From NCBI RefSeq assembly GCF_048128805.1, contig NC_136020.1, forward strand, positions 11,399,153 through 11,463,152: a DNA stretch of 64,000 bases, read 5' to 3'. Positions within the stretch are counted from its first letter, which is position 1. The number at the start of each line of letters is the position of its first letter. The stretch is from Centroberyx gerrardi. Lineage: Eukaryota; Chordata; Actinopteri; Beryciformes; Berycidae. This document shows positions 1 to 36,000 of this stretch, piece after piece. A program made the translations under genes and the position numbers. The notes beneath the pieces were generated by a model. The model had not been told where the DNA came from. It worked only from the letters and a program-made list of their open reading frames with translations, and searched no databases.

Positions 1-55
1 TCAAAGTATATATACAGAAGCAAAAATGTGCTAGTGCCAAAATGGGCAAAGAAGA
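1..55 (-). ncRNA. mir96: mir-96 precursor, 5' part only (cut by window edge)
   Basis: Bases 19-41 read on the minus strand are identical over 23 nt to mature miR-96-5p, with the family seed UUGGCAC. The upstream flank (GCCCATTTTGGCAC) resembles known mir-96 precursors. The start of the loop lies at 1-18, and the 3' arm falls left of base 1, so the hairpin cannot be folded here. It lies on the same strand as mir-183, 264 bases downstream of that mature sequence, as expected for a polycistronic precursor. The family acts in hair cells and photoreceptors (established knowledge). Identity is secure; precursor ends are estimates. Confidence 0.93.
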
Positions 56-251
56 GGAGCGGTTCGGGCAGCCGTTGGTACAGAGACACATCAGGCCAGA
101 GAGATGTCGAAGTACCCAGAGAGAGGTGTGCAGCTCAGCTCATGCAACCACACCAGAGCCATTACATCACATTCACCCCACCCACAAGCACAGGACAGGA
201 GAGGGAGGCACAGACAGTAAGCCGCTATGGACGGGCATCATCAAGTGGTTC

Positions 252-342
252 TTTCTCTGCTCTGTTTATGGCCCTATGGTAATTCACTGATAGTGAGCTT
301 TCACAGTGAATTCTACCAGTGCCATACACAGAACAGGAGTCA
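252..342 (-). ncRNA. mir183: mir-183 precursor hairpin, complete
   Basis: Bases 305-326 on the minus strand match mature miR-183-5p exactly over 22 nt (seed AUGGCAC). The complementary arm at 266-287 reads GTGAATTACC then ATAGGGCCATAA, the expected miR-183-3p form with small changes from the human arm as I recall it. The stem extends through CTGTTCTGT pairing with ACAGAGCAG, and the loop is about 17 nt (288-304). mir-96 lies downstream on the same strand. Short ORFs overlapping this hairpin on both strands are chance. Confidence 0.96.
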
Positions 343-3186
343 TCATCACCCCAACACCTACGCCAGCCTGTCAGGACAGTCAGCCCAGCGAAGCCAAACT
401 ACGCAGACTAGACCACCGACCCAACAGAGGAGAGCAGAAAGCGAGAGAAAAAGAGAGAGGAGGAGTGGAAGAGAGGTGGGAGCATGTGGAGAAATGATCT
501 GGACCGGGGAAAGGAGCGTCCATGGCCATCGATACGTCCACACTGTTGCAGTGACGCAGCTTAGCCCGGGACGCACCGCACTGCAGTGGATTGATCCAGC
601 CATTGAGTAACAGGTCAAAGGCTAGCGTGTCTCCACACTAACTATAAGTCCAGGCAATTCTAGGAATGAGCAAACATCCTCGTCTAATTATTTACTGCTA
701 ATCACCTACACTGCCTTCTTTAGATTTCTAGGAAAAGGATGGTTAGGATTTAAAATCTAATGAAACTATACGCAAGAACTATTTAGCCATTAGTACATGT
801 TAATAAGCAAGTAATACGATTCTAAACACATGAAGTCATTTCAACTATAATGGAAATGATCTTCCAGTTGAATATTTTCAGTTTAGTTGTCACAACAACA
901 CAGCAAGAAGGACTTGCAAGATTATTCTGCAATACAGTACAAGCATGCCGGAATCCAAAAAGGCCTTGGCCAAAGTCCTGAGATCTTGCCTACTCATCCT
1001 GCATCAAACATCTGACTTTATGCATTTTGCTATCTTTATTGGATTTTGGCGATTTGTTTGGGCGACTAAAACACTTTAAATCTAAAGCATCACTGGTTCA
1101 TTTTCCTGCACTCCCAGCAAAATGGGACAAATTAAAACCCAGACCAAAGAGACCGAGTTTCAACAATTATCCTCACTAAGACAAATTGATGAAAACAGGA
1201 ATACAGTCAATTATGCTATATTTCATTCATACTGCATTCTTAAAATGGCTTTCCATTGGGCAAATGCTGAATGCAACTGATAAAAAAATACACCCAATTT
1301 ACCAACAAATTACTACGTATGAATTACATATAAAGACACAATGAGGAACCAATCATTATTAAAGCCATCAATGCTCACCCTCTGTCTAAGAAGATGTCTG
1401 AGCATAAGGCTGGTAGACAGACTGGTGGTCCTGGAGAACCCTTATGGTTTATAGGTAATCTCTTTAGGCCCCGTCCCTGCTCTCCCCCCCACCCCCCCTT
1501 GACACTGTCTATAGAATGACACCCTAAACTTGACCTCTTAATTGGCTCCACTGAGCAGATTAGCAGTTGTTACATTGACCCATCGATGTTCTTCATGCCA
1601 GAATGATGAGCGACGCGCCACAGCTACTTAACCTCCTGCTCAGGATACCTTCTCTACCCAGCAAGTGAAGACTGGGCTCATTTCATCTTTACAGATTAGA
1701 ATAGAAATGTAAAGGACAAATGTAGGGGAGGAGATGTTTTTAGGGGAGCAAACCAAATGCTTTTTATCTAAACCAATTCTGCAAAATTTCATATTTACTG
1801 AAAAGATCAATTGATTTAGATGTCTTAATTTCACGTTTTATGGCCAGTGAAAACCTTTTGTGTTAAACTGCTTGAATCTCTCTTCTCTTGTCTGTCGCTT
1901 AACCAGTTTGAAGCATATGAAAATATGCAACTCTACACAAGTAAAATAAACAGCCAACTTGCAGGCTTTTGTTGTGCACTAATTCATTTGAAGCTAACCC
2001 ACTGAATGTATAAGCTCAGTGGAAGCTGAAGTATTATTTAACATGATGTCTTTGTGTTGATAGAGAGCCAGTGGATCACAGGCATTTCTCTCACTACTAC
2101 ATAAACTACACACCCAAGAAAATGGCTGCCATCATACTGAGATTTGGACATTGTGGCAATTTTACCATTTCAAATGTCTCACCAACAAGCATGCAAGGCA
2201 AATCATACAAGAACTACCAAAAATCTAATCCTGCCACTTTCCTTCTTAGATCATATTCTTGACTCAGTATAAATAATAATTCTATACAAATGATACTGCA
2301 GCTGAATAGTAACCTTCAGTAGTGAAAAGCATCTTTGCGCTGAAGACAAGGTCCTGGTCTCTGTGCTGCCTGTCCTGCAGGCCCAGCAGCCCCACCCTTG
2401 ATTCAGCCATTAGCTCCCTCACCCTGGCCCTGCAGCACCGAGCTCCCATTGATTCCAGCGATCAAACCATGTACTAAGTGATTCCTCAGACGCCCAAATG
2501 GCTCCCTGAGCAAGACTCCCATTGCCATTTCCTGGAGAAATCAATACCACTAAAAAGCCAAGTTGAAAAGAACCTGTGCTCTTTAAGGTTTGACTGTGTC
2601 TTGTTTTTCCATAACTTAATGAGTTAAGAAGGAATCAAAATCTTTGGGATTTTTGCAATATGTCATGACTTAAGATCATGACATGATCCATGTCAATAAC
2701 ACAAAGGCAATACAAAGTGCATTATTTCTGGGTGAAAAATTCTAGTTTACTCCAGTAATATGTTTTACTTGGTTAGATTCCAGTTATGTATTTATTCTGA
2801 GAGATGAGATTAGGTATATATTAGTGAATGATTGTTCCTCTATACAATAAGGCCACTATAGCAAATATGACTGACAGAATTAGCAGGCCTACTGTGCTAC
2901 TTCTATTTGATCCCTCTGTAAATAATCGTTTTCTATGGGTAATTATCTGGTTAATAGATGACACACAAACTCTTGTTCTGCTGTGCCATCAGGGCCAGCT
3001 GTCAAAATATAAAAACCACCTGCAATTAGCCTTATATAAGCCGGACCTTATTTTCACGATGATAATTTAGGAATTTATATTATCTGTGTAAAAACTGTTG
3101 TATTTTAGTAGTTTATACATTTTCATTAAATGTTTATCTTCGATAGACAATGTCAAAATATGGCTCTCGATTTGATCAATCCCCTC
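343..3186. other. Intergenic, AT-rich, no gene seen
   Basis: No ORF with recognisable protein similarity. The interval should be transcribed on the minus strand if the microRNA precursor starts further right. A GC-richer, non-repetitive block at about 2,335-2,560 stands out from its AT-rich surroundings and could be a conserved noncoding element. That is an impression from composition only. Confidence 0.5.
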
Positions 3187-3372
3187 AAAAAGAACTATAG
3201 TAACCCATTGATCAATTTTAAACGGATTTTATACAAATATCCTATAGGAATTTTATAGTGATACCAAAGAAAGTAAAATACTATAAAGTATTTGTCACTA
3301 GAAACTCACTACTGAGTACCGCAGATGCATTATAAATCCCTATAGGAATATTAAAGTGGTTTTTCGTTAGGT
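3187..3372 (-). repeat. AT-rich interspersed repeat, inverted arm 1
   Basis: This arm starts AAAAAGAACTATAGTAACCC and carries CCTATAGGAATTTTATAGTGAT and ACTCACTACTGAGTACCGCAGA-like segments. The reverse complement of 3,838-4,063 shares the same blocks in the same order, beginning AAAAAGAACTACAGTAATCC. The two arms are therefore diverged inverted copies of one repeat. The family was not recognised. Confidence 0.7.
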
Positions 3373-4063: not shown

Positions 4064-6149
4064 TCTTATGGGAAGAATGATAATAATCATTATGTGGCAG
4101 GTTCAGTTATTTCATCTTAATTCTTTTCTGTCGAAATGAAAAGAAAATTACAAGACACGGTAATCAGCATTCATCCTATAGGCTTAGGCTGCTAAAACCT
4201 GCTATTTACTGAAGTAAAATGTAGAAACACATGAGCAGGTGCAATGGGTTTATAAGACTACACCTGCCACCGTCTAATAGACCTGCAGCGTTAATCCGGA
4301 ATAACTGACATTAAAATGGCCACAACTTCGTTTAAATAATAGTGTTAAGTGTAGCGAAATTAATTCAATGTTGTAATGTTGCAATTCGTTTCTTTTGATT
4401 TATTTTTTTATTCGACCAAATTCAACCTGATCGGGCTACTTTATAGAACAAGCCAGAAGATGATAAAAAAAAGAAAAAGAAAAGTACGATTCTGCATTGG
4501 ATAAGATTCACAAGACCAAGGCCTGTAGACTGTTGCATTTAAATTTGTTCTTATTTTCACCAAATCCCCAAATCTAGGTCTAGAGACCTATTTAGTCAGG
4601 ATGAATGAGCCATGGCATCGAGGATTAACCACAGTCATATTTTGTTATTTTGGGAAATAGCCTATTTTATGAAATCTGATTGCTCAGCCTACCTCTTGAT
4701 GCGCAGCTTTCCGTGCTTTCCTTGAGGATGGTTTATAATCTATAAAAAAAACTTCTATAACTAACAGCCTAACTAAAGCTAAAAATGTAAAATGTAGTTC
4801 ATACCCCGTCCTCGATCCATCGTCGTGCGTCATATTTTAGGTTGATAAGCTACAAACTGGACTGAAGTCGCACCCGGCAGATATTATAGTCCTTAACCTA
4901 TTATTATCATTACGCTTTTCCACTATTAAAGTTGTATTGAACCGACACAAGCCTCCGGTCTGCGCTGCCCGCAGCGGCACTGCAGAATTACAATGAAACA
5001 AAAGAAATCCAAGCCCGTCCTGAACTTCCTGAGTATCAAATGTCAATTTCAGCCCTCTTCTCTTCTCTTCTGCTCTCGTCTCCTCTCCTCTCTCCTACTG
5101 GTTCCCTCTCTCTCCAAACTCAACCGCCTTCCCTTTTACCTGCACGGCCAGCTCCACACTGTCAGAAGGAAAGGTGCGGCGGTCTACCTTTTTAAAGGTG
5201 CAGAGCCGCAGAGGTGCGGCGGGACAACAGCAGGTTACAGCAGAGTCTCCAAATGAAGTTACAGCCCCAGCAGCTTCAAAATGTACACCGGTGTGCCTTT
5301 TTTTTTTTTTTTTTTACCTTTAAATACACAGTTACTAATGGTACAGTGGCGGACCTGCATGCATATTTAAACAATTTGTAGGCCAATTTGACCCAAGTGC
5401 ATTTCAGTACCATAAGTGCATGATGACCGCAGTGGGAATTGATCCTCGACCTTTTAAATAGTAAAATGTGCCCTAGTCACAAAACTACAGCATACCCCTT
5501 TAAAGGCACAGACCCAAAAGGTTCAAAGGGTTCCATCGTGCACCTTTTTTTCTGACAGCGGAGGGTTTTCCACCGCCTGTGGTAAACGGGAACCAAACAG
5601 CCTCCTGTCCAGTCCAGTCTCCCTCCACCAGTTTCCTCTACTGGTTTGGGCTGCAAGTCCGAGGATTTGCCCAGTGGGAAAGATAATTAGTTTGTAAGCA
5701 TCTTACCCCGGACCAGAGCAGTAATCCAAGCCGCCTCTGTGTCTCCTGTTCTGCGGTGTTCCCGGCCTCAGGTGCCGGGGCGTCTTTCCCCTTTAAGGTG
5801 GATCTCTCTGGAGGCGAGGCCACCTTAAGAGCGGTGCTGTTTTAACCCGGGACTGTTGCAGGCTGAGCAGATGAGGATTGGTTTTGTCTCTCCGGATTAA
5901 ACGATTTCCTGGCGAATAATTTGGACCAACCCCCTCTTTAGTCAATTGGTCCAGCTAACAAGACAGACGATTTTCTCGGGTTGGGACATTCACATTAGGC
6001 ATGATTTCCACAATAAATCATTTTAAACATTTAATGTAAATTCGGCCCATTAAAGAGGTTAAACGGAAATAAAACATTGGCGTTAACTAAAACGTAAAAC
6101 GTTTTCAGTAGGCTAGTGAATTTAGGACCTCATTGTATTTTCACTCTCT
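4064..6149. other. Intergenic, no gene seen
   Basis: No recognisable gene. The stretch includes a pyrimidine-rich run at 5,055-5,120, a T-run at about 5,299-5,317, and several TTTAAAGGTGCA / TGCACCTTT motifs between 5,175 and 5,550 that suggest an old interspersed repeat. The region from 5,560 to 5,900 is GC-richer without a protein signature. Confidence 0.45.
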
Positions 6150-6340
6150 GTTTAACTAGGCCTATAATATTCCTACAATATTCCCATATGGATTTATAAT
6201 GTGTAGTGAGTTTATAGTGACCTTTATTTTATTTTATGATATTTTTATCTATGGTAAAATATTCCTATAGCGGCTTGCAGATTTGCTGTGATGGTTGTAT
6301 CCTTCTAAAATTTAAGGAAGGATCACTAAGGTTCTTCTTA
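6150..6340 (+). repeat. AT-rich interspersed repeat, third copy
   Basis: It shares TATAATATTCCTACAATATT, GTAGTGAGTTTATAGTGACC, ATATTCCTATAG, TTGTATCCTTCTAAAAT and GGATCACTAAGGTTCTTCTT with the 3,838-4,063 copy, in the same order. The T-run of that copy is missing here. Confidence 0.7.
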
Positions 6341-6447: not shown

Positions 6448-6450
<3 letters not shown>

Positions 6451-6511: not shown

Positions 6512-8918
6512 AAAGCTGCTAGGGGAAAATGAACTATTGCTACATAGGTTAGGCCTATATCCCAAGACAAAAATTATTTTCCTCTATTCCGCAGTTTTAA
6601 TTGGTCTTTATGGACCTCTGATTTCCCCTGGTGGGTTCTTTGCTTTCTCCATCCAACAAATAGCAGAACAAAAAAAGAATAGAACAAATACTGCTGGAGC
6701 AGCCTACATATAGAGCATTAGGCTACTCACTAATGATCAATACAATATAGACTAGTGCTGCATTTCCAGAGATTAAACCCAGTATATAGATACACTGTTG
6801 GCGCATCTTCCCAGCCCCCATCCACCAGGATTAGTTTGAGCCGGCTGATGCTGTTGAGGCTGCAGTTCTTGGGTTGAAATGCTGCAGGATCAAATGACCA
6901 CGTCCAGATGGCCAATGATTATCAACCACTCAAATGCTGCATTTCATATATAAAGCCTGCGGTGGTTACTCCATGCAGTGCTGGATTGCGTAACATTTCC
7001 TGTCCGAAGCAGGCAGAATACCTTTGCTATGCCACACCGAAATGCAGTGTAGGACTTTTGTCGCCTGCCACATCAGAAAAGCAGGTTGCCAACGGAATCA
7101 AACAGTGTTACTCTCCTTTCCGATGGTCTTTATTGGGGTTTGATCTACGCGTTTTGGCTACTTTCTTCAGTTCTATATTCTGTCACCAAACACTATATAC
7201 TTAAAACCATACAACCTGAGGTGGGGATGAGATGGAGGCCTGGCGCGTCTTGTCCCGGCAGGCAGCAGCAGCTCTCCGGGCCCCCGGGGGCCTCAGTGTG
7301 GCTCTTCATCCTCCATTACAGGCCCAGCCCGAAGCCCAAAGCTCTCCTCGGGTTTTACGCAGAGCTGCGCAGCACCAGAGGGGCCCCCGCTGGAGGGAGA
7401 GCCCAAGGTATGGCTCCTATTCACCTTTGGACGCCTAATATATGAGGCCGACTTCTACCCATGCTCCTCTCCGATGGCCCGCCAGAGTCCATTTACCTGC
7501 TGTTGATAATTAGGCAGATAACTAGGTGGACAAAACTCGTCTAATATTTAGAGGTGATGTGAATGGGTTTGGTTACACTCCTTTCACAGTGAATAGCGAC
7601 AGTGAAATCAATCCGCGGTGACTCGTCGCGCCGGTCAGCGTGGAGAGCCGGAGCCCGCAGCTCTCCAAACCTCGACTTAGTTTCCACCTGGAAAAGCTGA
7701 AACCCGAGCCGCGGATCATCTGTGTGAGAGGCGGGCGTGTATAGGAGATGAGTAGCCCTCGATGAATATTTAAAATACTCATTTGGCCCGGTGCTGTCGC
7801 GCCCGGATCCAGATGAAGCAGCTGCCAGCAGAGGGATCAGATGGACGGTGTGCGTTTGTAGCACCGCGGCTCCTGTGCAGGGGATCCAGGCTATGTGATA
7901 GGACACTGGATGAAATAATAATGCGCTAAGATTTAGTCTACTGCTCCAAATGAAAGGCAAAATGCTAACAATAGGGAACATTTTATTGAGGATGCTAAAA
8001 GGATCAGGTTTGGATCAGTGTTATCTCAAAATGAAGATGCAGAGAAAGACCTCTTAACCCGGTCCCATCATAAATCCAAACAATCTGTTGCCAATACTTT
8101 TGAAAAAAATGAAGCACCAAAACAAGCTTATTTTACATTGAAGAGTGCTTATGAATAACAAAACAGATAGGAATATAGTTTAATCAAAACTTAGCCTACA
8201 AATAAATATTCACATCAGGCTAGTTTAAATTATTGGTCCATTCGTGGATTATTCTTAATATTGGACTTATATTGCGACAAAATAAAAATAAAAAGATGAA
8301 TAAAAATAAGAAAATAAATCAAATAAGACATTAAAAAAAATATATTGAATCAAACGGGCTAAGTGGAACTGATTTCAGTGGACAAAATTTAAATGATAGC
8401 CTTCTTGATATGAAATAGCAAGTTTGATCCAACATTGGAATGGGTTTTTTTCTGATTATTATTATTGAACAGGATTATTCAGGGAGCTCCGCTCCTGCAA
8501 CAGCATCACTGAGGGAAAATAAAAAGCACAGAAGATAGACATAAAAAGATTCTGAAATAAGGCTAATACTACGCTGATGGGCTTTTGCATAGATACTAAA
8601 TCTTGAAATAGGTGTGGTACATTTGTGATGTAGGTAATTCTATAGATATTTTTGGGAACTTGTATGAAACATATGGGTGTAACATAATTTATATCCAAAA
8701 TTTTAATTGGGATCCTTTATATCAAAAGTGAACAGATAGTCCACAAATTACCAATTAATCACTGAATAAAGAAAAGATAGAATGAAAAATCATAATTTTA
8801 CGAATATCACTCAAATTTAAAATCAGTGACTAGTTTTTTAACACTAATTAATTCTCTACTATATACATGCTAATTAATTAGTTAGTACATGCCGTTTTTA
8901 ATCTGAATTGCAAAATAT

Positions 8919-17541: not shown

Positions 17542-17666
17542 CTACAACTCCATGTCCTGGGCCTCGTCTTCTGAGAAATCAGACATGGAGCTTTCAGACG
17601 AAGAGTCGCCGGCCCCCTCTTCCTGCTCCTTCAGAGCCTCCTCTGTTGCATATTTCTGGATGTACT
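17542..17666 (-). CDS. ube2h: ube2h exon 7 (C-terminal tail, stop)
   Basis: It encodes [20 protein letters not shown] then the acidic tail and TAG. The acceptor is CTCTCCACAG|AGTAC. The (CT)n microsatellite just upstream acts as its pyrimidine tract. Confidence 0.97.
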
Positions 17667-17694
17667 CTGTGGAGAGAGAGCGAGAGAAAGAAAG

Positions 17695-17791
<97 letters not shown>

Positions 17792-19767
17792 ACAAAGCAG
17801 AGAGAGAGAGAAAGAAAGAAGAAAACAGACAGTGAGTGAGAGACAGAAAGAGAGCATGGCTGCGTCACATAACTTCACAGGTTGGGAGGAGTACAAAGAG
17901 CTCACCCAGGGGATACTGGGAGAAGCAAAACACCCAGAGGATACAAAGACAGACACACACACACACACACACACACAAAATAGGTGCGAACAATGAAAAG
18001 TACATGACATCAAAGAGCGGAAGAGCAGTCTATGGCCAAAAGCAGTGATATCCATTACAGACGACTGTACCATAACAAACATGAAATCTACCGTACAATG
18101 TAATTTTGTCCTTAACACAATCGCATATAATATCACAATAAACAAGGGCAGAGGGGGGCAGGCATCCTGGACGTAAACCAAGACTAGACGTCACACCACT
18201 GTGAGAGACTGGTGCCTCCAGGAATTAAACTACAAAGAGATCATCTTCAAAAAACCCCACTGATTCTCAGTTTAACTGCTTGGTGTGATATGCTAATCAG
18301 AACTACTTTTAATCCTTTGTTGGACAAAGTAAACGCTATTCTCCAATTGCAAAATTACGTGATCTAAATACACCAAAACAGGATGGAATCGAGCTGAACC
18401 TTTGATTTTCTGTTTGTACTCCTCTGGCCGGTGGAGGTACATGGCGGCTGCGTCTCCATTCAGGGGGTCGATGGGGTTTGGGTAGGCCAGCAGCTGGGGC
18501 AGGAACGACTCAAAGATGTTGGTCAGATCTGGGGAGGAAGACGACAGAATATCACTCGTACCAACTTCACTACATTTAATCAGACAGTGAAATAACAATC
18601 TAACAGTTATAGATATTTAGTTCCAGACCACCGCTTCTTGGTCCTATACAAACGTAACCATTAATCTGACAGGACCTGATGGAGAAAATCTCACCTCATA
18701 TTTTGCCAATGATATTTCTAATTTCATCAAACACTGTGCCGCCTCTGCTAATCTGCCAAATGAAAGCTGTTCCAGTGCACCGCTGATGCTCATAATCAAT
18801 TTACACAGATGTCAGTCAGTGAAGACCATACAAAGGCGTCAAAGATGCTTGGTATATGTACTAGGTACCAGACTTAAAATGTAAAATCCTCAGCCTGATG
18901 AAGAGTGACTACACTAATCCCTTTCACTAGCTCTGTGCTAGCAGGCCTTGCTTTCTCTCCAAGCTGAGGCCTACAAGAAAAACCTGCAATTCTGCTCCTG
19001 TCTCCTGGGTGTCACTGTTGGGTCCATTCAAGTAGGGCAAACAAACACTTCCCTATCGTCCATTGTATTATCATGTTTTGATGATTTAATCAGTTGCATT
19101 TGTTCTCTCTGCCTGCAGAGACCAAATGCAGACAATGCTTGGCTGATTGGCCTATTCTCTCAATGCATTTTCCCAACCTGATTCCACTCCACAAAACTAA
19201 ACCTTCTGTATTCTACAAAAGTACAAACAAAGCTAAAATAAAAAGGAAAGATTAGCTACTCAAAAGGGTCTGATTTGATTTTAGAGGAGAAGAGAGCAAG
19301 CTACCTCACATGGCTGCAGAACGAACTCTGGATCTGGGAACTTGATAACATTAATGATAGTCCAATTAGAAAATCCATTCCCTTTCATATAAAAGCGCTT
19401 GAATCGGTGAGTTAATTTAGTATCAAGTTAATTAAATACCATTTAGGGCTTTTACATGCTCCTCCAGGTCATATCTGTGAATACCAGTGAAAATAAATAG
19501 GGTGGGCTGCTGAAACATCTGTTAGGGATATCACCATAAAGCCATTTATATTGCTCAACAGCTATCTTAGCCATGTGGAGGGGCTGTAATGAGAAATTAA
19601 TGGGGAAATGTACAGGGGGGAGGGCATGGGGAGGCGGAGAGCGAGAGAGAGAGAGCGAGAGCGAGAGCGAGAGAGAAGCAGTGACAGTGAGAAGAGAGCG
19701 AGAAGAGCAACTGGGTGAGAAACAGTAAGGACACTCACTGCCATTGCGAGTATGAGAGCATGCCCCC

Positions 19768-19813
<46 letters not shown>

Positions 19814-20091
19814 TGACACACAGTAAATCATTCCTGTCGGGGTGAATGTTTTCTGACCTTGCTGGCTCAGGGTATTACCTCGTTAGTGTTCACTTCACCC
19901 CCTAGTAAGTAGATTAGGGCCACTACTGTCCCATTGTCTAATGCTACAACACCCGCTAGCCAGGGGCCAGCAGTGACTAGTTCACCTTTTTGGCGCCGAT
20001 GGCCCCGTTTCCACTTCTTCACACATAATCACACAGAAACAGTATATGGAAAGAGTATGATATGCATTGTGTTTATGCTCCATCTCCCCCC

Positions 20092-20126
<35 letters not shown>

Positions 20127-21493
20127 CGTAAAGGGCTGTCCATGTCTGGTTGATGACATCTAAGCACACTGTCCCTGACCTGGGAACCGGACAAGAAAAT
20201 AGAGGTAGAAGGGCAAGGGGGAGGGGAGGTAAGAGGGAATTAGTGTGTGTGTGTGTCTATGCCAAGGCAGCTCGATAAATTGCAGCAGGTGACGGCACAA
20301 GCCCCCTCTAAACACCTATACACACCCACTGCAACTACCATTGACAATGCAATTAAGATTCAAGAAAAATTATTCTGGGGGTATGGGAGAAGGGGGTGTT
20401 AGGGGGGGGAGGGGGGGGAGGGGGGCAAGGTTCAATCCAAAATATATCCTGCGTGAAACACATGTTCACATGTCAAATGCGAATGTCGCATTTTCAAGAG
20501 GGGCTCTGAGAGATTATTGTGTTCAGATTCCTATTCTGGCCTCTAAATCCAGTAAGGCCCCTCACTATTTAACTGTGAGGGGGAATAAAACAACAAAAGA
20601 AGGCATACGTCCTTGGGAGAGTGCTGCCCTTGGGTGTCCCTAGCAGAGGGCGAAGAGATGAAATAAAGAATGTATGCATTGTGTTGGCAAATGGGTTGAA
20701 CTAAGACTCCACAATATGACATGACAGCAGCTAATTAGATGAGCTTTGGTGAGCTAGGCCTTCATATTCGTGTTGTGCACCAATAGTGTAAATTGATTTC
20801 TAATGTTTATGACAAATACTTTCTGTCAGTTCTTGGCTATACAGTCCCAAAATAATGGAAACCCAATCAAAAAATTGACACTTCAAAACTATGACTGGGG
20901 TCAACTTACGCTTCATCAATGTTGGGATGAAAAATCTTATTCATGAATCCTGAAAAAAAGAAAAAAAGGAAAGCAAAGATGAGAACAGCGTAAGAGTGAA
21001 GTAAAAACAGAAAATGTTAGCTTGTACGCCTGCATGCACAGTGAGAGCGCCCCTACCTATTGATGGCGATTTGAAAGGGTATTTGTCGGGAAGATCTACT
21101 CGCACCTTCCACACGCCTCCCTCGTACGGCGCTGGACGTGACGAGACAAAGACAGAGAGAACACACTTGAAGACAGAAGGGAGACTTTCATTCCATTCAG
21201 CATCATATTCCATCCTTTATGCACTCCTATGGGTTTGGACACTGTAGGATTGTAGCAATTTTCTTCACTCGTTTCTCCACTGCTGAGAAACACAACGGAG
21301 AGCTGGGCACTTGAGAAATGAGCTACTGCTCCCCCATCACCATCACCACCACCACCACCACCACCACCACCATCAGTCCTCCACCCCTCCCATTTTCTTT
21401 GATTCTATGCAGTAATGTATTTCAGCCCAGGGCTTTGCAGACTTCTTTACTTCCAAATCAATTGGTGTAATATAGTGACATCAAAGAGGATGT

Positions 21494-21528
<35 letters not shown>

Positions 21529-21529
21529 T

Positions 21530-21560
<31 letters not shown>

Positions 21561-21687
21561 GCTCTCCCAGAATAGCTGTGTGTAACTGGAGCTGCGTGTG
21601 CCGTACTGGAACTGGACAGCACATAGACACTAAAACACTGACACTTGTTGAGGACAGACGGCGGCAGCACGCATACACTCCCATATG

Positions 21688-21722
<35 letters not shown>

Positions 21723-22522
21723 CTACAGAGTGTGCTCGCGCTGAACACAGTGTCGAGGCATCATAAACAGGGCAAACACCCACTTCCTTTCTTTATTGAT
21801 GTGTAAGTAGCAGTGGCTTCGGTGCAACAGATGTTGTGAGCAGCGTCAGTAAGAAGTATTTCCTGCTGAGGAGGCCGTCGTCCTCATCCAACTTCCCCTC
21901 AAGCCTGGCTCCACTCCGCTTCACACTCGTTGCCTCGGGCCTGGTTTTAATCCACTTTATGTCCCTGCCTGCCCTCGTGAAGCCCTCTGTATGTTCCAAA
22001 CAGGAGAATGACTGAGATTCCTCCGCTGGCTGCTCAGGACAGCTCTCACTGTCGCTTCACGCTCTGTCGGGAGTTTGACTCGACCTCAGATATGTTCAGA
22101 CATCTTACTCCTTTACAGTAATGTGAATCTGGTCTTACAGGCATAGATTCAAAATGTTTATTTGCTCAGGAAAGGGGAATGAAAAGGAGAACTTTCGAGA
22201 TCCCAAATGGAGGACGCACGAATAAATGTTACTATGTTTCATGTTCCGAGGAACCAGGGTCAAAGCATATCCCAGGCCTAGATCCTAGGGCCACTTTCTG
22301 GGACACATTAGCCCAATGAGGATTCACCACTGAATTAGGAAACTTTGTTTTATGTGTCAGGAAAAAAAGGAACAGAAAAGAGAAACACTTACTTCCTGGT
22401 GGTCCAAAAAACTTGACTACAAATTCATTGAGTCCGCTGAGGATGGTGACTTCATGCTTGCTCTCAATGCTGCGTGGCTGTTAAGGACAACTGCAGTTTG
22501 GCTTCACAAGTACATATATGAT

Positions 22523-22557
<35 letters not shown>

Positions 22558-25500
22558 CATGATCTGTGGTACTAAAATGATAAATAATTCATGGCTAATA
22601 TTTCGGGTCTCAAAACAATTTGACCTTTCTGGAATGATAATTCACGTTCTGTTGTTTCCAGCCTGACACATCGCCGCGTGCTTTGTTACAAGGAAGACGA
22701 AGACGAGAGCAGAATCTGACCTCCTCTCCGTCTCTCCCTCTCTCCCCCCCAAACCCCGTCTCATTCCCTTTCACATCATACACAGTTATGAGGACTAAAG
22801 AGAGAAATGATCGCTTTTGACAGATAATGAAAACTAATCAATGCAGGGAAATTCCGCTGGGATTCTGCACCGGCCCCCAATCTCCTGCAGAACATTCAGA
22901 AGAATCAGCTTCAACGATGCTCATTAGCTGCATGCGGATTATTCATTCTGCACACCGATGAAGGACACTGTACTGCCTACAAATACACAACAACAAACAT
23001 CCCCACTCTGAATGTGAAGTTTCAGTGATTGCACACCCAAAAATGCATGCACGCACACACACACACACACACGCACACACAAGTGGATCAGAACAACACA
23101 AAATAGAAGGAAACAGTGGAAGGGAAAGCAGGGAAAAAGGAATCTCCACATCTCTGAAACATTCTCTCTCAGCTCTTTTCTAGATTGCATTTGCTCTGCA
23201 AGAACAAAACAGTCATGCCAAAGAAGATATTGAGGCTTAGCGTTGCACATATTGCCCACCCCTGATTGGGACTTTTGTGTGCTAGCATTTTGAGAGAGGG
23301 AGCACGAAACGAAGGTCCCCACTGAGCAACTCAGCAGAAGAGGCTGTGTCCTCACACTGAGGGCCTGATGTTCTGCTAATTTACACAATAACCCATACTC
23401 CTAACAAACACAATATGCTCTCTAGCTTGGCTGTAGTCCAACCTATGAGAATAAAACATGTGAAAAATAGCATGTATGGCATGTATTTATCAAGCTTCTG
23501 ATCCCACTTTGGGACCACTGATGCCATTAACCACCTCATTCATAAAGTGGTTAATCTAATATCTTACGTTGCTCACATCTCAATACTTATCAATGGCGGA
23601 GTTTATATGCTGCAAGATTATACATTAGGGGGAATAACTCACTCGTATTCAAGATTAAATCATCTCAGATGTCTCTGCCAGACTAGAGTAGCTCATTTCC
23701 AAACAACTGCGAATCCATCTGTAATAATCCAGCCAGTAGAACAGTGGTCTAACAGGGCATGTCAACAAACGTGCATGTTATTTCACTGCGATATGCTTAT
23801 GCTCAAACTCCAAAATAGTTTTCAAAGTTGCTTAGAAACTTAAATACATGGTAAGAGGTTAATGAGATGTCAATTTCTGTTTAACCCACATTTAAAAAAA
23901 TGATGAGTTATCTTGTGTAACCAAGGTAAATTTCCAGCAACACTTTTGCAAACTGCCTAGCCTTGATATTCAATCTATAACCTCATATCCATTTCATATT
24001 TTTGCAACGCTTCTCTGCACTTAGATGGCAGTCTTGTTTTTAAACTCCCTTATCATGCGATCGGTAGAACATAATTTTCTTGAAAATGTAAAACTGTTAA
24101 CCTAAAGCAATTTTCTGACTACTTCAGTTGCAAGCTGAGAATATTCAGCTGCAGCCTTGCGCTCTACATGGGATTGGTCAAGGAAAGGCTTTCAAAATTG
24201 CTTGGATTTGACTATCTCTATGTAGCACACTCCAGAAGATTGAGTAACTGACACCATGCAAATGTACAGATGCTAGGCTGTCATCTGCAGTGTGAGTGAG
24301 TGATAATAACACTTGAATTGCACATGACTCAAGCAACACAGATTCCCAACACATTTTAATAGGGTGCAAGAATCTTGGGACTTTGAAAATAAAAACAAAC
24401 GCTGGATATTAAGGCGCGCCTGGCCCAACTGTTTATAACTTTGTGTTCATTTTTGTGTTTATCTTCCTAATGTGATTCACTTCCAAACCTCCAAACAGGC
24501 TGAGCTTTAGAGAATTTGCATTTCCCCCAAACATCTGCCATAGGAGATGTTTTCCCCTGTGAGATGGGTGAATAATCGGTAAGCGTTTTCCTCTGTTCCT
24601 GCCCATTTAAAATGGCAGCTACTCCAGTTACAGACATAATTACAATAATCACAGACCCTCAAGCATGCGTATTTTCTTTTATTCAAAGAACCACATGGCT
24701 AAATCCAACATTATGGCTATGTGGATATGCTCTACCCTAGCCCTTATCATTCTCCATCCCCACTCTAGTATACGTAGAGCTCATCACAGAGATTATCCTC
24801 CAGTGTATGAGAGCAGAGGAAAAAGTATGGGAAATAAAAAACAGAAAGCAGAGAGACTGGGACACGGAGAGAGAAAAAGTGAACACGAATAAGACACAGA
24901 GACGGAAAGAATCATCAAACGAGTGCAAAAGACTTTGATAGAATGCGGTAAATGCAGAACACGAGACACAAAGAACGAGAGAAAGGATAAAAATGTGTGT
25001 TTTCCGAGCCACACAGTGTAGCAGCTGGCTTGTCAATCCTGATTGAGTGTGTATCCCATTAGCAGTGGCACTGACCCTCAAAGGGTTAAACCAAACTGGA
25101 GGTTATTTTAAGCTCCGGCTGAATCTGCGAAGGGCAGAATGAATCCCTAGCTTCACCCAGGAAATGTGTCATTGTCAGAAAGAAGAGGATCTTCTCTGTT
25201 CTGACTCGTGTTTGAGTCAAGGAGGCATCTTGAGGGTCTTTCAAAAAAAAGGCCAAGGCAGAATGAATGAACACTAACAGGAGTACTTAATGCTTACCTG
25301 AAGCATGCTAGCAAAACACCAACTAGCCTACGCATAATGGGGAGACTCCAGTGCTTAAAGAAAAGCCCCATCCACATTAGACTATATACATAATGTTTAC
25401 ATTCTGCAGCTTATCCAGTTCTGTCCTTCGTGTAAGGGCATCTGTGTACCTAACCAATAAGGGAAAATCACTGGTGTGTGAGGGAATGTGTGTATGGTCA

Positions 25501-26213
25501 TGTAAGAGAGGGCAGCAATCCCCAAGAGGGGGATGGGATGGAACGTGTGTGTGTTGTATGTGATAGAGGACAGCAGCGAGTGGGGGGTGGGCATACGTTA
25601 TTAAAGGGATGAATCAACAGTGATCCTGCTGCAGGCTAATTGACACCAGCCATACTGACATGGGTAGGCTACCTATGCCAAATGAGACATTTTTTAATTT
25701 ACATTTTAGGCGTTTAGCTGACACACTTATCCAGACAGGCTTACATTGACTGCAATAGTAGAAAAAGTTACATTTCCTACTCCTAGATCACCAAAATTAC
25801 AAGCAACCAATAGTAAAGAGTGCAAAGGTCAGGGCCTTAGTGTCCTGTGACCACCGTGAGATCATGTGAGAGAAGAAAGAGCTGTGACAGAGTACCTTGT
25901 AGAGCACCAGCTGACTTCTCACATACTGTTAACATTATAATAATGTGAACAAGTAAGTTGCACACAACAAGCATCAACTTTTAAACACATTTAAGTGCAG
26001 ATGACACTCAACACACAACTGTGTTCAGGAGCCAACAGTGCAAGACTGTGGCAGGACTGTGCGTAACCCCACCCCAACCTCGCAAATACACACTCATCCA
26101 CCCACCCCACCCTCCTCACAAACACACCCCCAGGCTATTCAATGAGCTCTTAGTTAACTTGTGCGGATAAAGAAGAGTTAAGTATAGCAGCAACAACTAC
26201 AACAGTAGATGTG

Positions 26214-26250
<37 letters not shown>

Positions 26251-29200
26251 GCATTACTCACAGTCTTTAGCATAAAGACCAACACTCTCTTTGGCTTGGA
26301 TGTAAACATCAACACCCTCTCGTCTTTGTCTTTAGTGAGGCCAATCCCACCGCAATGAATTCACTCTTATGGGACGCTGGCCATCTTTCATGCCGTCATG
26401 ACACCTTCATGTTCTGACCCACTGGCCTCGATTGATACAGGGAGGCCCGAGGAGCCAAGCACTCATTCCTCCCACCCAGCAAATAAATACAAGTCACTGT
26501 CAACAGCTGCTCGCTCCCAGTCTGAAGGAGTTTGGCAGGTCTGTTAAGACAGAAAAGAGTTCCTGCTACAGCTTGTAAACCTCCAACTGTTTGATGGAGT
26601 GGATGATGGGGTGAGAGAGGGTAGCTGACAAAACAGCCCTCCAGCCAGTCAAACACACAGAGGGGGAGAGGAGATATGCAGATTGTCACAAAACCTGATG
26701 AGCAGGACACACTTATTACATACCAATTTACCAGGAGCTGTTGTATTGTAGGACTACACAATTTTTTGTTGTTAGAAAGTGTCAAACTTGAGTTGAGAAC
26801 AGTGGTTAGATAGGCTTGCATTTGCCAAAAGAAAGATACATTTTTTTTCATCATCATAAGAAGCCAGCAATTGCATTACATTGGGTGCGTTTCATTCATA
26901 TTCAGGATATTCTTCTGTTTATGAGTTGGCGCTATATCCCGCTTACAATAACTAGGATAAGCTCACATCCCAAATATGAAAGCCTTAATATGCTATCTGG
27001 GATATGTTGATATTAACCGGTATATTCTGGCATGTAAACACTACATCCTATTTATTGTTGGGTTTGGTGAACAGCGCAAACACTGTTTCCATAGAGTCAC
27101 AAGCATCAAAATAGCATCCCACTAATGAACACAGCGGGAAAACTATAGAACATTAGACTATCTCCATGTATACAGGTAAATGAAAAAACTGGTTACTGAT
27201 CATTGCATGTAAACGCCATATCCTGACTAAGACCTGGTAAGGCTCATATTCTGAATATTAATGTGCATGTAAACACACTCATTGTCACCTAACCAGGATT
27301 CAACTGTACCAAGAAGTTTCAGGACAATTCAACGAACAACTTCTAACAGAAGTGTCTTGGTCGAGGATATGTGTTAATTTGTTCCCCACTCGCTGCATTA
27401 CTCCAGTCTTCGTCTGTCCATCCCCCCACCTAGGATTAGTATAGATAAGTCATAATCTGGATAGCACTAGGTCAATAATATCCCTTCACGCACACATATA
27501 ATCTGATGCACAGAGCCCAATCAATCCAGAAGAACAAACACACACATCCTTATAGCTACATCTCCCATAAACACAGCCATGTTTATTTTAAGCCCCAAAC
27601 TGTAACAGCAATATGGTTCCCTGTGGACAAGCCATTTCCCCACCACTGACTTTCTTCATATCGTGATTTATTGGATTGAAGAGACTCTGGGGACAGACAG
27701 TGTTAGCCAGCTCACCATTAGTTTTACATGTATGTTGACACAGTAAAAGGTTTGTTTGCATTTACAGTGTTTGTAATGTAAACAGCACTGTTAGGATAGG
27801 ATAAAAAAAGTTCCGGACAACTCCTTTTCAGTCTACAAGTCAACCTCTTCAAGAACATGTGAATATAACCAAATATTAGACTTGGTCAAATGTATACAGA
27901 ATTGTATCATTACGTCCTGTTCTGCTCTGTGATGGTCCTGGAGCCAAAGCTTCTAAGATGCCTCTTTCTCAGTCTAGGGCAGGCAACAGCCCTCCTCCCT
28001 CCTTTTCACAACACACTTGGGGCTAAGTTTTGGTGGTGCGCTCTGAGAAGTCAGTGCCAACTTAGCTCTGGAACTAGACAAATTTAGCCCAGGGCTAAGG
28101 TCAATGTTACCCTGATTCCTGAGTTTGTAATGCAAATCCAAAGTCTCGAGTGTAAAAATATGCAGTGAAAAACCTTTTCGGGTGTGGTCTAGACATATCT
28201 TGTTTTCCTTTTGGCCCATTCAGGCCACTATCCCTGTCTGACCCAGGCTCAAAATATCCTGTCCTGACCAACCGCTTGCTAAGTAGGGAAAACAAACATG
28301 ATGGTTCATCATAAACAGCACTGTGTCAAACAATGTGGCGTCAACTACACTTGAACATTTCTTCAGTAGCTGTTGACTTGGTGAAGTGAATGCACTATAA
28401 TTGAAAAGAAAGAAGAGGGAGACAGGGAGAGGGAAGGCAAGCTCAAAACCATCCTCTGATCAAACCTCCCAGCAGGACGATATAATGAATCAAAAACCCT
28501 CAATACTGACTACTGCAAATTCCAGTTCACAACAAAGTGAATTTTTTGTGCATTAACATCTTATTTTTTATCATCTATTTTGCATGTTTCCAAGTTAAAA
28601 AGACGGGGTGGAAAAAGCTGTGCCCACATGTATCACAACAACTGTCGGCACAAAGAATTTGCTGTACAATTTTTAGACAACATGGTGCAGCCCTATGTCT
28701 TGGGCACATAAAAACCGGATTAAAAAGCACCAAATTGACACAGCAGGCCAGACTAGACCCTTTATTTCTCAGCATACAACACACTGACCACCTGCTGAAT
28801 CCGCCAGCTTTAAGTCAAACCTTTTCAAGTTAAGGTATGGAGCGTCTAGGCCGATTAGGGATAAATAAAGGGAGAGGCAGTAAGTCAAAGAATACCAAAG
28901 AGATGGAGAGTGCTAGGCAACAGGCTAGCAGAGGATCACATTCAGCATTTCCCTTGGGTTTTACAGTCATTTGCAGAACTCAGCAGTGAAAAGGACTGTC
29001 ATTAATAGTCAGTGTTAATGTGTTTTTGTTTTTTTTATCAGATTGGGAAATGTATTTGTGGTGAGCCTGTCTTATATTGTGGTGCAGAAAAGAAGTCTGC
29101 ATGGGAAACACTGTCATTAATAGTCAGTGACCCCAAAGCCAGGGGGAAAGAGGAATATAAAAAGAGAGGGCACAATAAGGTCAGCCAACCACACAGCCAG

Positions 29201-29447
29201 TGAGAGCGATGAAGCAGGGGAGTAAGCAAGCGCACGAGAAGATGACAGAGAGGGCTGACAAACAGTGAGGTGAAAGAAACATGGACAGAGTGATGATGAA
29301 AGAGCGGTAGAGAGATAGTGATGCAGAGAAAATGAGAGAAAGAGTTCAGCCTGGTGAATGCTGATCCAGCCTCACAGGCAGATCTGTGGATGTGAATGAC
29401 ATCATTGCTGTGGACCGCAGGCAACAGCCCATGATGGTGACTTGGCC

Positions 29448-29489
<42 letters not shown>

Positions 29490-30021
29490 TGCGCACATGT
29501 GAATGTCTATTATACATGACTGAAATCAGTGTAGGCAGCAGTTAGCATAAAATAGTGCACTAGTGGCCAGAGGGTAAGCACAGGGCGGTTGAATTCTCCA
29601 TCCTCTCTCAATGGAAAAAAGGGATAGGTCTATTCACTGGTCAATGGGATGAGGCTACAAACTGGTCTGCTTTAACAGCAAGGCAAATATTTAGGCTACC
29701 TACTGCCAACAGGGAATACAACACTGTCTCAGAGAGGTGAGACTGCCTACATTGGGCCGACTGCACGCTGACAGCAAGTCTCTCACTTGCGGAACTGTGT
29801 TTGCCCTCAGCAGTCGTGCAGCCTTGGATAGAGATAATGTGGTGTGAGATGAAATTTGAAAGTATATAGGAATTGGATGATGTAACTTTGCTGGCTGTCA
29901 ATTTACCTGGTAAGGGCAACAAAAACACTGTAAACACTGAAACACAGTAACAGTAACCTGTTTTAAGCGTGAATCTTCTATTACAGATGAGGAACTATGA
30001 AGCATCAACCTCTCTCTCACT

Positions 30022-30080
<59 letters not shown>

Positions 30081-33000
30081 ACTCTGGCCACCATGTACAA
30101 TCAAAGGCCTTGCAGATGAAAGGCAGGAAATATAGCAGCAGTCCTCGGGGTGAGAGCAATGGAGTAGGTTTCCTCCACCAAAAGAGACACATGCTTTGAG
30201 TACCAAAAGAAATGCACATACTAAGATGCATTGCCAAAAAGAGAGAGAGAGAGAGAGAGAGAAATAAGGCTTATATTTATGAGAGCATAAACTCCATTAT
30301 GCAAAAAGAAGAGCAGAAAGAGGCCTACTACATCTGAAATACAATAATGGAGCAGGCGGCAAACTCTATACCAGCACCCTACCACCAAACCACCAACAAT
30401 GCTGTTCTTTCTTCTTCTTCCTCACATGATGGGCCCAATGCCCACTCTCTGATATGGGGCCTTATTGAAAGAGAGAGACAGAGGAAAAAAAGGGATTTCG
30501 GGTACACATGTGGTTGGATGCACATACAATTTTGGTCAATGTGTGTGCATAGCTGTGTGAGTGTAATCGAGCTTGCTCGTAGGCAGCCTCTGCCAGCATA
30601 CATACACCTCTATCTCTACAGGTGTGCACAAGGTTCTGGTGTGTGCCTGTGTCTGTGTGCATGTGTTTGTGTGCGCATCCGATTTCGTGTGTATTAGCGT
30701 ACTGCACCGTGCCAAGCAGGATTAGTGTGTGACCTCCACTATACTAAACAGTCTGGGAACACAGGCTGCTAGTGTAGCACGGCAACCATCCTGGGTACAG
30801 GCCACAGCAGGCAGAGAGAGAGAGAGAGATAGAAAGGCAGTTGCTGTGAGAGCGTGATTTAATCAGCTCCATGCCAAACAAACATCGTTCTCCCTGCAGC
30901 CGTCTCCAGCCAACCCCACTGACCCACTCCAACACTCTCCTTCTCTCCATCTCTCTCATTCTCCCCCTAATACTGTGAGACTAGCTTTTGTCTCCCCGCT
31001 GTTTGCTTTCTTTTATTGCTCATTAAGGCCGGGTCATACTAGATGATTTTAATGCAGATTCAAAGCCCGAATGGACCATCCTGACTGACAGGAGTGCCCC
31101 CATCCCCAGCTCACTCCTAAGGTCATGCAGATTATCCTGTTGTGAGAACGGGCTCAAGTCTGGAGACTCTGGCCCTCCCAATAACCCCAGACCAGTCGGA
31201 GCCCCACAACAAAATGTGTTTGATTTTGTCACTCCCAGTATGGCCAGGTTCGTGTAGTGTGAAGCGGTGCAAGACTCACCAAGACTGAAATCTGACTGAG
31301 TGGCACTGACAACATCCAATGGGAGTTTAGCTCAAGGGGGAAGAAAAAGAGAATGCACCAGAAGAGAAGTCACCAACAACTCCCACTCATGTAGATAGTT
31401 TACATCAGTAGAGATCTGCAGCTCCACTTGCTACACTCTTGATAAGTTGCTACACAAATTTATTTGGAGGAATAAATCTCATTAAATGGTATAAAATGGC
31501 GACATGCCTGGATCAATCCATACAAGTATGTATTTACAAATTAAGTGAATGAAGTCAAAATTCCTCAATGTTATCCTTGTAACACTGCCACTTCAAAATA
31601 CAGTTGTAATGTAAATGTAGACTGAAACTTCTCTACCATGACACAATAAAGTATCAACATCTATTATGAACATTCCTTCAGTGACACTGAACTGTCCTGA
31701 AGGAATGGGAAAATGTTTTTGAATGACAAAATCAGGGTAGTGCGTGATCCCTCGTTTTCATGTGTGTGACGCCCCAACTTTGCCCTGCCGTGTAGTGTCA
31801 ACAGATTCCAGACAGGACAGCCAGCAGACCGGCCATTTAGTGTGAACTGCTCTCATTGGGCAAGATATGAACCGTGTTTCGATCTGACCTAGGCGTAAAT
31901 TCTAGCTCTCACTGAATAGAAGAGTGCAGCCCAGCAGGTTAGTGAAGCTTTACGCTGGCTGAAAACTGAAGTAAAAACTAGGCTACGGAAGAAGTCTTCA
32001 GGGCTATTACAAAGTAAGATCAACCGAAATCAGCGACAAAATGTCATTAGTCTTGCAAGCCCTATTTAACTAGAGGCTGAAAATGGAATACTATGAAAAA
32101 AAACATGACGGCTAAAAAGGTAGCTAATCATCAAACCTGCTTCACTTAATAGGCTGCCTCACAGGATTCAAAGTTCACAAATGTCTGCTTAGTGCTCTTT
32201 ACAGACGGGTGGCGGCCGATGATAGAGCAGAGCTATGGCAGTTGCTGCCTTGGTTACAGTGCAGTAATAAGGAGTTTAACTGCATGTTTGCCTGACTGAT
32301 TTGGGAATTGTGGTACCCTTCACTGTACTGGACTCTCATAATTAAGACGCTAATGCTTCCAGTTATTCATGGATCCAAATCTGATTCTGACAGGCACTGT
32401 AACAGCCACCGCTCCTTAGCCTAGTTTCTTCCCTGTCAATGTATGGGCTGGTTGTTCTCAGCTCTCCTCAGAGGCGTGGGGGCCCCGGCTGTCCATGACT
32501 GGCCTGGCCCGCTCCGATAAGTGAATGCAGGTGGAGCGGTAGGACAGTAACAGGCCTGCAGCCCTTCACCAGCTGTTCTCACTTCCCCTTTTTCCTGCCC
32601 ACGCCTCGGGGGAGGAACGTGTGCTGGCTCTCCACTCTGTCCCCTCTAGCTCAGGGACGCTAGGGTCTTAATAGCCCCCAGTACAACACAAATAGTGTAC
32701 TTGTAAACAGATTAAGCACATGTGATTGTTCTATGTGGAACCAAAACAAATGAATTAGCCATGAGGAGTGGCCTAATCCTTCAGAGACTAGGCTAGCATA
32801 GTCCTGATACAACTCATGGTTACAAAGACCTATGCAGATCCACATTATGAATAGACCTAGAAAAACTACCTCATCTAGTGTCTGCAACTTTGTCCACAAC
32901 AAACTTTATGGAGGGTTCAGCAGGCTTTGGGACTTGCAGCCATCAAGTCAAGATTTTCAAAAAAGGCTACAAGGCCCATCACCTCACAATACTGTATGAC

Positions 33001-36000
33001 AAGCTGGACTCAAGCAAAAGGTACAACACTGAAGCCCATTCTCTCTCTTTATAAGCAAGCTCTCAAAGTGTTAGACAGAAAACCCAATAATTCCCATCAC
33101 TGCAATATTCTTGGCAAATATGACATCCTTAGCTGGGAAAATCTAATGAAATACACTGACACCTGCCTGATGTTTAAGATCCTAAATGGCAAGGCTCCTC
33201 CACCACTTCGTACTTTTATTAAGCAGAAAACTTCAAACAACAGATCTACAAGATCTGAACCTGCTGCTAACTTGTCCCATGTCCGTTGCCAGGCGGCCAG
33301 CTTTGCATGGCTTAGGTATGTATGGAATATCTACTAGTATTTTATTAATAATTTGGTAACATTTTATCAAGATCAACATAATGATTGCTGTATTATATTT
33401 ATGTTTACTGGTTATTGCTGCTCTGCATGTCTGCATGTATCAAAAGTTGGTCGTGGTCAGTATTGCTTGGCTGTGTGTTGTTGCTTCGTGTTGCTTGCAT
33501 GGCTATATGTGCCGAAATGGTGTTTTTTACCGATACCGATACCAGTATCGGTATCGGTGCATCCCTAGTCTCTATGGCGTCTTGCTGTCTTCGTTCTGTA
33601 AATTTTATCACTTTATAGGTTTTAAAACATCTCGTCAAAAGGACTGCAGTTGAAAATTAGCCAGCTGGCTAACACTGTCTGGCACATTTACAGAAATGTT
33701 GATTAATGTGTGTTGTCCTTATAAATAAATAAATAAATAAACAAATAAAATAAACAAATAACCTGTGCTTGCTACTAAGAACACATAGAGTAAGGTCATC
33801 TCTTTCATCCTAACTTATTTCCTCACAACTAGTAAATGAACTGGACTGCAGTTGAAGAAATACAGAATTTCTTGGGTGAAAAATAAACAACCCAAGCAAG
33901 CAAAGGGAAAATAAACCTTGTGGGTAATTTAAAGTCTGGTATATGACATCATAGTTGGCTGGTTTTCTACAGGCTGTATTTTTAGCAGTTTAGATTTTCA
34001 AATGGTCACTCACAAGTTCCTAAGGTCAAAAAACTACAGTAGCAAGGCCTAGGCTATATATACTATATTGAGAAATGCAACATAGCTTTTGTTTTGCCTT
34101 GGAGCTCAGTTTGATGACAACAACTGAAGTAGGCCAAAAAGAAATGTAGGCTATAGCTAAAAAAAAAGTTTAGGCTAAGTAGAGAGTATTCTATACAATA
34201 TAAAATAACCCTCCACAAAATAGTAATCTTATCATACTGAGACTTGCAGAAACCTGCTAAACTGTCATTTGGCATTGGGCTGCTGCTATTCCCCATTCTA
34301 TTCTTATCCTGGGTGGGAAATGACCACGGGCCAAATGCTGGAGAATTTTGGCTGCTAATCTCCTCTACTCTACCAGCTTCTCTGACAGGTTATATTTGGC
34401 TGGTGAAAGAGTCAGTTTAGGGAACTACTTGCCATTGTGTCAGTTAGATGAAATCAAGTAGATTAGTTTCCTGCTCTGATCTCATCTCCTTACAGCAAAA
34501 CACTGTAAAAGAATGTATGGCTGTTTAATGGTAACACTCTGTACTTTGGACGGGTCACGCATTCAGATGCATTTCAGAAAAGCATAGCAGCGAAAGTATG
34601 CCCCTTTGCAGTAGTCAGATAATATGTTCATAATGTTGAATCATAACTAATGAACCTCTCCTTTCAACATTTCAAGATTGGTAAAGCTGAGTTCAGACTG
34701 TCTGTTCTGGAAGCATCCAGCTCCTCCTGACACATTAAGTGTTTGAATACTGATGGAGGACTGGGTGCCAGTGTGTGCGGCCTGCGCTAAAAGAAAACCT
34801 CACAGCATGTTTTACATATCAATGGACATATGGCCCCAAAGGTCTGACTCACTGAAATCCAAATGTAAATGCCTTTTAGCTGCTAAGTACATACTGCACT
34901 CACTGGGCGGTGGACGGAAGATAAGTCTATGAATACTTCAGTTTCACATTCCACTTTGAAAATGAAGGGTAAACATCTGAAATTTTATGAAACATTTGAT
35001 ATGACGAGAGAGGTTGTGCCATCAACTGGAATATACGTCTGTTACCTTGCAATGCAATAGTAGAGGAAGTAGCTTATGTAAAGCTTATGTCTATGTATTC
35101 ATTTCAATAGCCAGTCTAACGTGTTGAACCTGTGTACATTTCCCATTCTCATTCAAAACACTGACAGACTACATTTCTCACCTCATCTAGAGATGAGTAA
35201 CAGACAAAAAACACAAAACACAGACACACACCATCTGCCCCTGCACCTTAGGATGAGCCTTTTGAACTAACACTATAATAACAGCTGACAATGCATATGA
35301 ATAAAGCTGTCTTCACAATCCATGATTTTCATTTTCATTTCAATATGCACTTGCACTGAATATGTGCATTTTCTACGCCTGCTCTAAAAGCAAAAGAGAA
35401 TGAAACAAAACAAACAGCTCAATGCTCCACAGATAACCAAGAACATCATAACCACATTGCAATGCAGATCTGGTTCCCACTAGAGAGAGGCCTACATATA
35501 CCAAGCTAGCTGCTGGCTACCTCGCTGGATGGGAGCTGGAGCAGTACAGTACGGCACAGGGTGAGTTCTTTGTCTTCTCTGGTGAGAGATGAGAGCCCAC
35601 CCACCGCAATCAAACATGAATCCCTGAGCTGCTCCTCCTCTCAACCCTTCACTAAATCAACAGTCTATTTACAGCAACAGCACTGTGTGTGCATGTGTGT
35701 GTGTGTGTGTGTGTGTATACAGGATATGATCATTAATGATCATGAAAACTCTGATATTGAGCCAGGGCAGGAGAAACAATGGCCTGAATCCCAGGCAATT
35801 GTCTAATGAGCAAATCTGCAAACAGACGAGACGACAACAAGCTTGGCTGTCTGTTGTAAGAAAAAAAAAAAAAAAGAGGGGCACTGAATTTCAGCACTCG
35901 AATGTTGACAAAGCTGCCACTGTGGTAGACAAACCTAGGTTTTGAGTAGAGTGTGAACCACACACACACACACGCACAGGGCTGCTTCTATCAAGCTGAT

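Follow-up and report, generated by a model that had tools for sequence, protein, structure and literature searches.

The window, the whole 64-kb stretch of DNA analyzed here, almost certainly starts within the vertebrate mir-183/96/182 microRNA cluster of an animal that is most probably a teleost fish. A second complete copy of that cluster is present on another contig of the same genome and most likely derives from the teleost whole-genome duplication. Each locus carries the three hairpins in the same order on one strand, has ube2h and a kelch gene as neighbors, and shares with the other a small set of short noncoding elements. Because both clusters belong to one genome, the elements can be picked out against a background that has diverged to about one-third identity. 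Vaguely defined "control sequences" are in this way narrowed down to a handful of named candidates, each 63-111 bases long.

Features are listed in Table 1. Window position p corresponds to base 11399152+p of contig C24, and positions ≤0 lie to the left of the window. Positions prefixed C4 are on contig C4 of the same genome, which comprises 278 contigs and 778,876,752 bases.

Table 1. Positions of microRNAs, genes and conserved elements at the two loci (window coordinates unless a contig is named)
Feature	Position	Strand	Evidence or remark
mir-183 precursor hairpin	260..333	-	RF00663, 97.7 bits; fold z -5.67 with short flanks; contains exact mature sequence
miR-183-5p	305-326	-	Exact over 22 nt
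mir-96 precursor, 5' part	1..49	-	RF00669, 47.1 bits; final 29 bases left of window
miR-96-5p	19-41	-	Exact over 23 nt
mir-182 hairpin	C24:11398500-11398576 (-652 to -576)	-	RF00702, 102.1 bits
CNE1	2448..2558		72% over 114 columns with C4:18803183-18803295, 65.4 bits
CNE2	5644..5754		74% over 112 columns with C4:18804406-18804515, 71.1 bits
CNE3	7490..7562		75% over 76 columns with C4:18805107-18805180, 48.3 bits
CpG peak	7300..7999	-	Putative start region of primary transcript
CNE4 (ube2h intron 1, ~1.1 kb inside from exon 1)	41210..41309		72% over 102 columns with C4:18816420-18816518
nrf1-intron element (63 bases)	-9308 to -9246; C4:18800227-18800291		49.7 bits; best shuffle 32.6
nrf1	-23165 to -6791	+	Coding pieces, left of window
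ube2h	17545..42497	-	Seven coding pieces, tblastn with human UBE2H
ube2h coding pieces	42497-42444, 22468-22391, ~21129-21055, 20950-20909, 20178-20128, 18529-18401, 17667-17545	-
zf-C3HC and NuBaID_C domains	48024 to 45646	-	Pfam
kelch gene	55786 to 58594	+	Pfam
Second mir-183/96/182 cluster	C4:18801727-18802449	-	Rfam families over cut-off
Second mir-183	C4:18802376-18802449	-	Whole-genome RF00663 search, over cut-off

The cluster at the window edge and its neighbors

A preliminary description of this DNA reported two mature microRNAs that were matched over their full length, in cluster order and on one strand. Query sequences for mature miR-96 (23 nt) and miR-183 (22 nt) each match the 64 kb once when up to three mismatches are allowed, and have no match in 100 shuffled sequences; together with exact identity and the Rfam scores, this result confirms the report. 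The mir-183 hairpin spans its entire Rfam model (positions 1-74 of 74; E 1.8e-22) and lies above the curated gathering score of 53 bits, which places it in the family. It is the sole Rfam match at gathering scores within the whole window, and none of 200 shuffles of the hairpin and its short flanks folds as well. A plus-strand match at the same position (44.4 bits) was rejected as a separate gene, because it is the reverse complement of this hairpin. Weak Rfam matches within positions 1-15000 (mir-3154, Six3os1_2, mir-2944 and others; E 0.11 to 4.3) were rejected because they fall far under gathering scores and lie mostly in simple repeats.

The window contains 49 of the 78 model positions of mir-96, in a match marked as cut at its 3' end (E 1.3e-7). 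Its score is below the gathering score of 65 bits because the window edge removes the 3' end. Alone, this half does not form a hairpin (z -0.62, equaled by 48 of 200 shuffles), because a single arm cannot. The whole hairpin, retrieved from the genome at C24:11399124-11399201 (-28 to 49), scores 97.3 bits and is a member of the family. It folds with -30.4 kcal/mol, which none of 300 shuffles equals, so that the 3' arm of mir-96 is indeed foldable.

The description also predicted that mir-182 would be found just to the left on the minus strand. Within the 64-kb window, no match to the mature miR-182 sequence is found at ≤3 mismatches. The hairpin lies 577-653 bases left of window base 1, on the same strand as mir-183 and mir-96, and exceeds the gathering score of 71 bits that defines membership in the mir-182 family; its mature sequence is exact over 22 nt. 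The prediction therefore holds to within 0.7 kb. Given this nearby mir-182 and the foldable mir-96 arm, the description also survives the two tests that it had set for itself, namely the presence of mir-182 within several kilobases on the left and of a mir-96 3' arm that can fold.

On C24, the cluster has the order 183-96-182 on one strand, with gaps of 210 and 547 bases and a span of 986 bases. It is located between nrf1, whose plus-strand coding sequence stops about 6.8 kb short of the window on its left side, and ube2h, whose stop codon is about 17.2 kb from mir-183. The earlier use of ube2h as an anchor for the locus is upheld, in that seven minus-strand coding pieces cover residues 1-183 of the human protein and match it at 81 to 100% per piece. 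Exon edges in the window were read by eye from the tblastn-based alignment. Pfam scans, in which stop codons within whole frames were read as X, covered positions 301-17542 (six frames) and 42501-62102 (whole frames). The first of these regions has no domain at the cut-off. Weak matches to ODV-E18, DUF3915 and ERbeta_N in the scans were rejected as below their cut-offs. The zf-C3HC and NuBaID_C domain pair is read as zc3hc1, and the kelch gene to the right is probably klhdc10, judging from the human gene order. Placement of the cluster between nrf1 and ube2h, with zc3hc1 nearby, is the gene order found in humans. Thus, the cluster at the window is the ordinary vertebrate mir-183/96/182 cluster and was correctly recognized; in itself it is textbook material, well known from sensory organs and linked to deafness and the retina.

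A second cluster in the same genome

We searched the window's own genome with the three Rfam families, scoring only the best candidates and listing matches to E 0.001. Among the candidates scored, each of the mir-183, mir-96 and mir-182 families has two loci over its cut-off. Further matches to E 0.001 are weaker, reverse-strand ones to the same hairpins of mir-183 and mir-96. The second cluster, on C4, has the microRNA order seen on C24, with gaps of 153 and 341 bases. To compare the two loci, we used regional sequences of 113.9 kb (C24) and 100 kb (C4), each joined from neighboring stretches (213.9 kb in total). Of the 86 DNA matches listed, the collinear ones extend from mir-182 to about 70.6 kb in window coordinates and to 18840814 on C4. 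The two contigs therefore carry a collinear paralogous block, as expected of a duplication pair, that continues through ube2h and the kelch gene, and ube2h is a neighbor of the cluster at both loci. Neither nrf1 nor zc3hc1 turned up in the 100 kb of C4 that was compared, which leaves the second block incomplete. The ube2h genes differ in length, extending over about 25 kb in the window (intron 1, about 20 kb) and only about 7.5 kb on C4 (18810219-18817704).

Divergence between the copies is strongly uneven. All 67 positions of the three main mature arms are identical, and the hairpins are 96% (mir-183), 85% (mir-96) and 90% (mir-182) identical, whereas identity is 35 and 28% in the two spacers between hairpins and 45% in the 67 bases upstream of mir-183. 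Of 300 shuffles for each hairpin (mir-183, mir-96 and mir-182, respectively), 1, 0 and 0 fold as well on C24, and 0, 0 and 4 on C4. A CNNC motif occurs ≤40 bases 3' of each of the six hairpins, at varying distances; according to passages of PMC7785829, such motifs can aid processing by Drosha. For ube2h, dN is 0.012 and dS is 0.94, with differences at 35 of 80 fourfold sites, as calculated from coding sequences in which, for each copy, a single codon is duplicated where exons 3 and 4 join. Taken together, the conserved hairpins and arms, the diverged spacers, the folds and the ube2h rates fit an old duplication after which both clusters have remained under constraint.

The age of this duplication rests on ube2h dS in the one genome compared, and we also considered that the second cluster arose by a younger segmental or lineage-specific duplication. 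A dS of 0.94 is short of saturation, and the failure to find nrf1 and zc3hc1 in the C4 block would suit a duplication of that kind. However, the copies reside on different large contigs, are collinear over about 71 kb (C24) and 39 kb (C4), and have spacers with no more than 28-35% identity. These features fit an old event followed by gene loss, and we regard a younger duplication as improbable. The teleost whole-genome duplication is thus the most likely source of the second cluster, an origin and a date that are suggested by these patterns.

A further proposal would be that one cluster has fallen silent and is in decay. The C4 hairpins do score lower, at 82.6 bits for mir-96 (versus 97.3 on C24) and 87.5 bits for mir-182 (versus 102.1), and the C4 mir-182 is the weakest fold of the six. 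Yet all three C4 hairpins remain over their gathering scores, and their main mature arms are unchanged despite the diverged spacers, which makes decay very improbable.

Conserved noncoding elements and a candidate promoter

The 12 kb to the right of the cluster had been expected to carry its control sequences. In the gap between mir-183 and the ube2h stop codon, where no Pfam domain reaches its cut-off, three elements (CNE1, CNE2 and CNE3) are conserved between the two copies, which supports that expectation only in part, as far as conservation is concerned; the control role is one that we infer. Their order and orientation are kept at both loci, and their scores compare with a best of 32.6 bits among 30 shuffles. 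None of the three has another match within the 213.9 kb compared. A whole-genome DNA search with CNE2 returned only CNE2 itself, at a sensitivity too low to list even its C4 partner. In the window's copy, one reading frame of CNE1 and one of CNE2 stay open across all or nearly all of the element. However, their alignments to C4 contain gaps of 1 and 2 bases, which argues against coding.

Two further elements lie outside this gap. CNE4 scores 59.7 bits, compared with 34.0 for the best of 30 shuffles, and is more likely an element of ube2h. The element to the left of the window is assigned to an nrf1 intron because the last nrf1 coding piece is at -6955 to -6791. On C4, this element is 1.4 kb from mir-182, although the 100 kb compared there yielded no coding piece of nrf1. 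When a bystander gene is lost but an element from its intron is retained, the pattern is that expected of an element that serves a neighbor. The nrf1-intron element, positioned beside mir-182 where nrf1 was not found, is a lead for a sensory enhancer of the cluster.

Several other matches were set aside. Those at 3187-4072 and 6114-6508, to C4 sequence near mir-183, were dropped as a dispersed repeat, since further occurrences exist on both C4 and C24. This repeat occurs several times around both clusters, also at C4:18802892-18803113 and 18775633-18775837, and on C4 one copy precedes mir-183 by about 0.45 kb. A CA run accounts for the match at -12169, which was dropped. We do not claim the matches at 14966-15019 (34.0 bits) and 15151-15232 (32.6 bits), which score no better than the top shuffle level (32.6), nor five more on the left side with 34.0 to 36.8 bits. 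For the zc3hc1 interval, the best C24 match to C4 (32.6 bits) is below the best shuffle (35.4), and none exceeds it.

On the basis of sequence comparison, we propose that CNE1-3 and the nrf1-intron element would control the microRNA cluster. Alternatively, the conserved elements might serve ube2h (or nrf1) while the cluster's promoter is elsewhere. The first version of this alternative gains from the position of the elements between mir-183 and ube2h, both of which are present at both loci, and from CNE4 being inside ube2h; but CNE1-3 are nearer to mir-183, being 2.1 to 7.2 kb upstream of it, than to ube2h, whose stop codon they follow at a distance of 10 to 15 kb. Service to nrf1 is at odds with retention of the intron element beside mir-182 on C4, where nrf1 coding pieces were not found. 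We consider the alternative somewhat unlikely.

CNE3 is located in the strongest CpG peak of the window: the highest count among 400-base windows (step 100) is 26, at 7501-7900. The next-highest windows include the start of ube2h (42401), the first kelch exon (55601-55801) and 51801-51901, and high counts also occur where there is no known gene start, for example at 4601-4901. In the corresponding C4 interval, CpG content reaches its maximum at 18808561-18809260 and not at CNE3, where 17 CpG are present in the 400 bases from 18805161, versus 22 at that peak. Therefore, CpG content argues cleanly for CNE3 in the window's copy but not in the C4 copy. The CpG-rich C4 stretch is situated between CNE3 and ube2h and has no clear partner in the window.

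An exact 14-mer at 7490-7503 in CNE3 is common to both copies. The conserved CAGGTAAAT in CNE3 may represent either a 5' splice site or a ZEB-kind E-box, with neither reading preferred. A pattern scan of positions 7300-8000 on the microRNA strand of the window's copy found no TATAAA, TATATA, CCAAT or GC box. C4 has TATATA at 18805084, just past CNE3, and the window has, by eye, a weaker TATATTA at a similar place. According to passages of PMC5432258, the human cluster's promoter contains a pair of CpG islands that precede the predicted transcription start. We judge the chances about evenly balanced that CNE3 and the CpG peak at 7.3-8.0 kb constitute the promoter, at a position suggested by conservation and CpG content. 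In this model, the primary transcript would start near CNE3 and the CpG peak. Wherever it starts, the three hairpins would be transcribed as one unit and the cluster would be expressed in sensory cells.

A broader and more speculative proposal is that the genome has two separately controlled, complete clusters with identical main mature microRNAs. Four or more ancient control elements, including CNE3 as a promoter element and the nrf1-intron element, would survive at each, and sensory expression (for example, ear and lateral line versus eye) would have been divided between the clusters by the loss of other elements. We think that this full scenario is unlikely to be correct.

Comparison with known systems

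We found no duplicated fish mir-183 cluster in the literature searched. One may well appear in Desvignes et al. 2021, reportedly the main survey and the likeliest to hold it. We claim no priority for the second cluster; what this analysis adds is that cluster together with the elements picked out by comparison.

The C24 cluster resembles the vertebrate cluster (RF00663, RF00669, RF00702) in its three hairpins, their order and strand, and the compact intergenic layout. Its main mature arms equal the human ones, and nrf1, ube2h and zc3hc1 are its neighbors. According to passages of PMC3145563, the vertebrate microRNAs are co-transcribed from 1-4 kb of intergenic DNA, and passages of PMC6635406 describe a shared primary transcript and mature sequences that are fully conserved between zebrafish and mammals. 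A difference concerns number: in passages of two reports (PMC6635406, PMC11750094), the zebrafish cluster is spoken of in the singular, whereas the present genome carries two complete clusters. In this respect, the pair resembles teleost microRNA clusters that were duplicated by the teleost genome duplication, which likewise form collinear blocks with clustered microRNAs in both.
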